Positions 3,424-4,745 of a DNA stretch of 64,000 nucleotides are shown here, piece by piece. The stretch is from Nitrospira sp. (GTDB lineage: Bacteria > Nitrospirota > Nitrospiria > Nitrospirales > Nitrospiraceae): contig JAEURX010000052.1 in NCBI GenBank assembly GCA_016788885.1, positions 62,001-126,000 of the forward strand, written 5' to 3'. A program made the translations under genes and the position numbers. Each line of letters begins with the position of its first letter. Position 1 is the stretch's first letter. The notes beneath the pieces were generated by a model. It was not told the origin of the DNA. It made no database searches and saw only the letters and a program-made list of their open reading frames with translations.

Positions 3424-4092
3424 ATGTCGTTTTCAAACCATCTTCGAAAATTGGCCCAACCCGTCTGGGACGCACAACTGACCCACCCGTTTGTGCTGGC
3501 ACTGGGGAAGGGTACGTTGTCGGAGCGGAAGTTCCGTTACTACATTCTTCAGGACGCCCGCTTCCTCGCGGACCTGGCGCGGGTGTTTGCCGCAGGCTCC
3601 GTGCGAGCGCCGGACGCCGAATCTGCGCTCCGTTTCGCAAAACTGGCCGAAGACACCATCATCGTCGAGCGCAGCCTCCACGAGAACTACGGGAAGCGCT
3701 GGAATCTCTCGCCGCAGGACATGCTGAACGAGCCGATGTCCCCGACCAACTACGCGTACACCAGGCACATGCTGACCGTCGCCCAAAGCGGCACGGCCAC
3801 GGAAATCGGCGTCGTCGCGCTTCCCTGCGCATGGATCTACTGCGTCGTCGGCAAACATCTGCTGAAGAATGGCGCTCCACCCGCCAAGCACCCGTACCGA
3901 GACTGGTTGATGCTGTATGCCTCGCCGGAGTTCGAGGCGGTTCAAGAATGGATGCGCGCCAGAATCGACACCTGGGCGCGAACGGCCGGCCACGAAGAAA
4001 AGAAGCGGATGGAACACTCGTTTCTCATCAGCTCGAAGTATGAATGGATGTTTTGGGAGATGGCCTGGAACGAGGAGAAGTGGCCGGTGTGA
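3424..4092 (+). CDS. tenA: TenA family thiaminase II / aminopyrimidine aminohydrolase
   Basis: 222 residues, the usual TenA length, all-helical. The catalytic Cys sits in the family motif LPCAWIY (about residue 137), with acidic and aromatic pocket residues in YYILQDARFL and the C-terminal SSKYEWMFWEMAW. TenA proteins hydrolyse damaged thiamine or its aminopyrimidine fragment so that HMP can be recycled; ThiD, which phosphorylates HMP, is encoded 3.3 kb downstream on the same strand. A strong AAGGAGGAA precedes the ATG. Substrate preference (thiamine or aminomethylpyrimidine) cannot be read from sequence. Confidence 0.9.
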   Translation: MSFSNHLRKLAQPVWDAQLTHPFVLALGKGTLSERKFRYYILQDARFLADLARVFAAGSVRAPDAESALRFAKLAEDTIIVERSLHENYGKRWNLSPQDMLNEPMSPTNYAYTRHMLTVAQSGTATEIGVVALPCAWIYCVVGKHLLKNGAPPAKHPYRDWLMLYASPEFEAVQEWMRARIDTWARTAGHEEKKRMEHSFLISSKYEWMFWEMAWNEEKWPV

Positions 4093-4095
4093 GGG

Positions 4096-4296
4096 GACGA
4101 GGGAGTGAGGCAACCTCTTCGCGTGGAATCACAACCCCGGCGGGCTCTGCCAGAGACTCCCTTGGCGTCTGAACTTGCTGCGTTCCGCAGCTTCGAACAG
4201 CAGAGGCCACCTGCAAAGCAGGACGGTACGTCTCTCGCAGCGCAACAATCTCACCGGGGTCGTGAACACGCTCAGACCCTGCCTCACTCCCTCGTC
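4096..4296. ncRNA. 201-bp rod-like palindromic element, candidate structured RNA
   Basis: The ends are a perfect 17-bp inverted repeat (4096-4112 with 4280-4296). Inside, further segments pair in register: GCGTG 4121-4125 with CACGC 4267-4271, TCAC 4129-4132 with GTGA 4262-4265, ACCCCGG 4134-4140 with CCGGGGT 4254-4260. The middle has local hairpins, including CCTGCAAAGCAGG at 4210-4222 and a GCTGCG/CGCAGC stem. The whole would fold into one long interrupted rod, a size and shape reminiscent of 6S RNA, but no family is established and the strand is unknown. A non-autonomous mobile element with 17-bp termini is the alternative; no target duplication is seen. Confidence 0.5.
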
Positions 4297-4397
4297 AATC
4301 ACATATCCAGGTCGAAAGCAGGAGTGCTGAAACAGAAGAGTAGCTGCACACACACCCTCAAGCGTGACCGTGTGGGACGGACCGCTCAGCGACGGGA

Positions 4398-4553
4398 CTA
4401 ACTTGCCTTACGGTATCCCGGCTCCTCCGTAAGAGGCTCCCACTTCGGCTCATACTGCTCGACCTCCATCCCATCCTCGTCGTCCACCAGCGTGGCCCAG
4501 ACTGCAATCACCAGGATCAACAACGTCAATGCGCCGAGAAAATAGACTGGCAT
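4398..4553 (-). CDS. 51-aa single-helix membrane protein
   Basis: A short gene with a strong GGGAGG 6-7 nt before ATG (4553). The product starts MPVYFLGALTLLILVIAVWA, a clear transmembrane helix, then continues as an acidic tail with DDEDG, EQYEPKWEPL and EEPGY, ending TAG. Hydrophobic head plus conserved-looking acidic/aromatic tail suggest a small accessory subunit of a membrane complex, but I cannot name a family. It lies alone on the minus strand between tenA and the HEAT-repeat gene. Confidence rests on the ribosome-binding site and the coherent topology. Confidence 0.7.
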   Translation of the reverse strand: MPVYFLGALTLLILVIAVWATLVDDEDGMEVEQYEPKWEPLTEEPGYRKAS

Positions 4554-4745
4554 ATTGACCTCCCGGGTTCATGTGTTCCCTACTCACATGCTAGTCGTTC
4601 CCCCGCACGTTCACTACGAGGGAAATACCCGGTTTTTGTCGGCAACATCCCCAGGATGAGCCAAGGTCCCCTCCCTTTCAGATTTCCTTCCAGGTTATGT
4701 TAGGCTGAGTCCATCACAAGACAGAGCGCCGGCCTCGACTTCCGT

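Follow-up and report, generated by a model that had tools for sequence, protein, structure and literature searches.

Between tenA and a gene for a 51-aa membrane microprotein, which converge on each other in a 64-kb stretch of Nitrospira DNA (the whole stretch that was analysed, here called the window), lies a palindromic element of 201 bp (Table 1). The tenA stop codon stands only 3 bp before the outer arm of this element. The microprotein has no Pfam match, and its gene is the right-hand neighbour of the tenA site in many Nitrospira. The ends of the element form a perfect 17-bp inverted repeat, as the initial annotation had stated, and the two arms are fully complementary. No other inverted repeat of the 64-kb window reaches an arm length of 12 bp within 260 bp, and simulated windows contained 0.12 pairs of 14-mers on average in the inverted-repeat control. 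RNA folding with 200 shuffles per strand predicts one interrupted rod for the plus strand (−110.6 kcal/mol, z −9.1) and one rod for the minus strand (−121.5 kcal/mol, z −9.5), and on either strand none of the 200 shuffles folded equally well. Three inner pairings that had been read from the sequence beforehand (4121-4125/4267-4271, 4129-4132/4262-4265 and 4134-4140/4254-4260) are present in the predicted structure. The middle, where small local hairpins had been noted, is a conserved core of the element and no incidental group of hairpins.

Table 1. Coordinates of the palindromic element, its parts and the neighbouring genes in the window
Feature	Position	Strand	Remarks
tenA (TENA/THI-4 family), upstream host gene	3424..4092	+	ORF list; Pfam PF03070, 3e-41
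Palindromic element, 201 bp	4096..4296	+	same orientation as tenA; core AACTT...TTCGAACA on +
5′ outer arm, perfect 17-bp inverted repeat	4096..4112	+
3′ outer arm	4280..4296	+	complementary to 4096-4112
Conserved core	4158..4226	+	matched by covariance models R1 and R2; R2 70.5 bits
Core stem 1, 5′ side, GGCGTCTG	4164..4171	+	pairs with 4201-4208
Unpaired AACTT, asymmetric internal loop	4172..4176	+	near-invariant; ≥95 of 96 copies have AAC
Core stem 2, GCTGCG/CGCAGC	4177..4191	+	terminal loop differs in size and sequence among copies
Unpaired conserved TTCGAACAG, internal loop	4192..4200	+
Second small core hairpin, CCTGC-AAA-GCAGG	4210..4222	+
51-aa membrane microprotein gene	4398..4553	-	convergent with tenA; genus-conserved; orthologous sequence in relatives

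An undescribed palindrome family in Nitrospiraceae

The element is one copy of an undescribed family of ~200-bp palindromic DNA elements in Nitrospiraceae. A covariance model made from the core (R1) recognised this core between genes at numerous unrelated loci, with matches in at least 28 of 61 relatives. A second model rebuilt from 31 matches (R2) found, among the matches listed, between 1 and 20 copies in each of many Nitrospiraceae genomes and nearly none elsewhere. In a scan of the phylum, at least 28 of 198 genomes had matches, all 28 of them in the window's own family; the sole exception to this range is one copy in G051, a member of a sister family. When 84,980 species were scanned with a sequence pattern, 32 stretches came up, 31 of them from Nitrospira/Nitrospirota; the remaining one, from Nocardiaceae, was discarded after the covariance model gave no confirmation of it, and viral contigs contained no match to the element. 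Full-text literature searches found no description of this palindrome family. In the window's own genome, the search for further copies that the initial annotation had proposed gave one full copy, among the matches listed, and a decayed half-copy behind secA.

The pairing is kept and covaries in relatives, in line with the conservation and covariation that the same annotation had asked for. Both partners have changed in 18 of 19 pairs across 96 distinct copies, and double changes number 340, compared with 107 ± 10 in shuffles and 36–78 in slid controls. In these copies the unpaired AACTT and TTCGAACA are near-invariant, and the terminal loop differs from copy to copy in both length and sequence. 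The distance between core and outer stem is fixed (about −58 to −40 and +47 to +64); the sequence of this stem is particular to a locus or subfamily, and element termini are shared only within one subfamily. That the arms drift yet stay complementary may be due to selection for the hairpin or to neutral repair of a quasi-palindrome by template switching, a process established for bacterial palindromes. Whether the arms are selected or neutrally repaired, the near-invariance of the loop bases points to a binder that is sequence-specific. Copies within one genome are 83% identical at best and 64% on average; recent MITE amplification was rejected on this ground, and the diversity is easier to reconcile with old sites or arrival on cassettes than with a recent burst of MITEs.

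In relatives of the same genus, the spacer 3′ of tenA is occupied by homologous elements whose centre is conserved and whose arms drift, and no element was found behind tenA in G004, G010 and G017. The orthologues at tenA extend the pairing slightly outwards, into the end of the gene (GTGTGA with TCACAC), and in most of them TCACACGTCCAC, directly after the 3′ arm, is complementary to the tenA end GTGGCCGGTGTGA. Two differing versions stand in tandem behind tenA in G005, G007 and G009, and G014 has further copies downstream of the tenA site. In G005, a gene pair for an AAA_21 ATPase and a DUF4276 protein (L039:1896-3658), which we take to be a PARIS-like defence system, lies between the double tenA elements and the microprotein gene.

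Other features were also seen behind tenA. A degenerate second tenA 3′ end (GAGAAGTAGCCGGTGTAG) precedes a second palindrome in L053 (G030), as if duplicated by insertion, and L030, L038, L048 and L049 carry a second palindrome family of ~100 bp with the core GCTCGCGCAACGCGCGGCCTC..GAAGGCCCTCGTTGGACGCGCGCAG and locus-specific outer stems.

Placement of the copies and contents of the arrays

Copies of the element are polar and placed directly behind stop codons. The end of a same-strand upstream gene lies within 200 bp of 43 of the 64 non-redundant copies, and about 20 of these 43 stop codons coincide with the edge of the element; a convergent downstream stop is found within 200 bp of 11 of the 64 and at the edge of none. 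The host genes include tenA, secA, purQ and ychF, the last three of which we take to be these genes from their translated sequences. At secA, occupied, decayed and empty forms occur in one genus. G023 is occupied and G022 is empty, their secA ends being 96% identical, and the relic in the window's own genome (L245; G000, contig C75) is a left half directly behind secA, cut after AACTTGTTCC, a truncation also present in G021. Presence and absence are likewise seen at purQ-purL, where some orthologous junctions are empty; the gene precedes the element in G001 and follows it elsewhere. Neither locus yielded a clean two-sided empty site. Insertion into the loop of an older terminator hairpin, considered as an explanation of the outer stems, was rejected since the empty purQ-purL sites have no hairpin, and secA gives no clean two-sided comparison for this idea.

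Several other repeats were also noticed. Behind ychF, L164 and L165 (G006 and G013) have a third repeat, GGCTGCTGAAAAAGGCC...GGCCTTTTTGAGC, where G001 has the element. A hairpin of ~40 bp 3′ of ychF in L101 and L164, CCTGTA-AACTCG-GTCGCGGCGAC-CTCAAACAG-TACAGG, mirrors the architecture of the core and may be a minimal relative of the element. A 35-bp motif (L157:2206-2240) occurs many times in nearly all Nitrospira genomes searched.

In a set of 103 copies, 13 pairs of neighbours are no more than 2.5 kb apart, compared with 0.5 expected, and 12 of these 13 close pairs are co-oriented (p 0.003), one being inverted. Most of the 1-2-kb intervals between elements hold one toxin-antitoxin-type module. 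These comprise a HigB-like Gp49 with an HI1420-type antidote in L299 (another interval of which has two unassigned small genes), a MazE-type antitoxin with a PIN toxin behind the secA-adjacent copy in L300, DUF2442 in L301, BrnT with CopG in L302, Fic in L303, RelE with an HTH antitoxin in L118 and L142, BrnT with an HTH protein in L043, and, in the inverted pair of L155, DUF4258 with a zinc-finger protein, a YgiT-type antitoxin by eye. Phd/YefM and YafQ-like genes lie 3′ of the second L142 copy. The Pfam matches for Gp49, BrnT (L302), CopG, YafQ and Phd are under the curated cut-off, and these genes were assigned partly by their two-gene arrangement. At the typical density of toxin-antitoxin genes, one would be expected in ~2% of random 1-kb stretches, and the enrichment in the intervals is accordingly large. 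This signal is specific to array intervals; Pfam matches of the genes downstream of all copies are mixed, with no single family, and most copies are solitary and have no evident cassette. The window copy is such a solitary site.

Two elements in L301:1519-2704 (G197) have common flanks, with GCGGGAGAGAAGTAYAAGCAAGCTTGGAGG on the left and GCCGGMGGG..AGCAAGCTCGGTGG on the right; the left and right flanks are also alike, which may indicate direct repeats at a unit boundary.

RNA, mobile repeat or joining site

The initial annotation had likened the element to a processed RNA of the 6S type, which it resembles in size and rod shape only. No Rfam family, including 6S RNA (RF00013), was found in the window at gathering thresholds, and at E-values up to 10 the region 3900-4700 matched only eukaryotic microRNA and lncRNA models, far under their cut-offs. 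6S RNA and other Rfam RNAs were rejected since neither the strict nor the permissive run gave anything bacterial. There is no promoter-like site for the element, and the family is multicopy, patchy and tied to upstream stop codons, which makes a 6S-like or other free-standing non-coding RNA very improbable. A structured 3′-UTR or terminator RNA, in which the upstream transcript would end in the rod, serving termination or mRNA protection, and the core would be bound by a protein, is rather improbable. Such an RNA would account for the orientation fixed to the upstream gene, the start at the stop codon, the very stable fold, the pairing conserved with compensatory changes, and the site between convergent genes in the window. 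However, a T-tract of four or more follows the stem in 2 of 39 copies, the background level (6%) for an intrinsic terminator, the element matches no Rfam family, and many close relatives lack it at the 3′ ends of the same genes. Full-length copies at tenA orthologues have more A-C mismatches than G-U pairs on the tenA-sense strand (41 and 14, respectively), which is suggestive of the strand opposite tenA in what the RNase P control shows to be a weak test; in the family core, G-U is not above A-C (~19 and 23, with misaligned helix 2 excluded). Because the RNase P control lacked the expected excess, this strand test is powerless and is given no weight. Taken in its context, an RNA function of the element is disfavoured.

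A non-autonomous element, named at first as the alternative to an RNA, comes closer to the data on dispersed unrelated loci and presence/absence in near relatives; neither the polarity of the copies, with their position at stop codons, nor their cassette arrays had been foreseen. No target duplication was seen earlier, and none was established here. According to this explanation, a REP/MITE-like palindrome would spread by itself, settle behind stop codons, where insertion is harmless or favoured, and share hotspots with toxin-antitoxin genes that it does not move. The copies are indeed dispersed and mostly solitary, presence and absence are seen at secA, and several other palindrome families occur in the same hotspots; REPs elsewhere also adjoin stop codons, lying within a few bases of them or even supplying them (PMC3733652, PMC12306157). 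A family of this kind would not be expected, however, to show co-oriented neighbours and one toxin-antitoxin-type module per interval, and near-identical copies are absent, no Y1 transposase is associated, and a length of ~200 bp far exceeds that of REPs. This explanation is therefore considered somewhat unlikely.

The preferred reading, to which a probability of about 0.45 is assigned, is that the family represents boundary sites, of the recombination type, of an integron-like gene-cassette system. Being placed behind stop codons and separating toxin-antitoxin pairs, the element may be the joining site of a gene-shuffling system; the polarity, the stop-codon position, the conserved fold with variable arms, the co-oriented arrays and the presence of one module per interval together resemble integron cassettes. 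As a single strand or an extruded cruciform, the core would fold into a bulged hairpin, which would be recognised by a putative recombinase or transposase, and units of gene plus element could be inserted or lost beside an element already in place or just past the 3′ end of a chromosomal gene, a target where insertion would be harmless. Since the element is accompanied by no attC boxes, integrase or Y1 transposase, we infer the enzyme and the mechanism; the IntI and Y1 loci examined gave no recombinase for the element, and neither an excision product nor an exact recombination point was identified. The predominance of solitary copies, the one inverted pair and the differing order of gene and element at purQ also speak against this reading. 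A fuller proposal, in which Nitrospiraceae would possess an integron-like system unrelated to IntI/attC, with ~200-bp folded DNA sites that join toxin-antitoxin and defence cassettes through a putative recombinase, is more doubtful and is made tentatively.

If the elements truly serve for joining, then the clade to which comammox bacteria belong, and which is dominant in nitrite oxidation, has an integron-independent route to toxin-antitoxin and defence genes. The conserved hairpin provides a handle for isolating the enzyme. Should the element be no more than a mobile repeat, it would still be a strongly polar palindrome present across the clade, with an AACTT/TTCGAACA motif outside every Rfam family, and a marker of insertion hotspots behind housekeeping genes.

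Comparison with known systems

6S RNA shares with the element a rod of ~200 nt but differs from this multicopy, patchy family, which has no Rfam match. ERIC and other bacterial MITEs are likewise palindromic intergenic repeats of 100-250 bp with presence/absence at orthologous sites, whereas the present family has no family-wide terminal sequence and no near-identical copies and shows strong polarity and cassette arrays. The REP/BIME-RAYT system, with its IS200/IS605-like Y1 transposases, also consists of dispersed, clade-specific extragenic palindromes near stop codons. REPs measure only 20-40 bp (PMC3733652), in contrast to ~200 bp here, and the element has a low copy number and no Y1 gene near any examined copy. 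A scan of 30 Y1-transposase loci with their flanks found no element core, and a Y1/RAYT system was rejected for this lack of co-location.

With regard to integrons, the attC boxes RYYYAAC/GTTRRRY are present at the outer ends of none of 39 copies. IntI scored above the NCBIfam cut-off in 5 of 61 genomes, the window's own not among them; true IntI was found at L108-L111 (G006, G013, G014 and G044), with attC-like folds beside two of these loci, and no element core lies near the four IntI loci examined. Membership in attC was rejected because the boxes are absent and the distribution of IntI is discordant, and since neither IntI nor Y1 tracks the element, it is attC-like at most and is not classed as attC. 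It further differs in that attC sites measure 57-141 bp, the element core has a second hairpin, and many element sites stand behind single-copy housekeeping genes (tenA, secA, purQ and ychF), without end boxes or IntI nearby. On the other hand, the element, like attC, is an imperfect palindrome in which unpaired bases are conserved and the terminal loop varies. In both, the fold is conserved while the sequence is highly variable, the orientation is fixed, and the site lies where the upstream gene has its stop codon. Its arrays, in which co-oriented sites alternate with one small toxin-antitoxin-type unit, are like those of integrons and of CALIN, namely attC clusters without integrase, two of which were reported in Candidatus Nitrospira inopinata with IntegronFinder 2.0 (PMC9024848).
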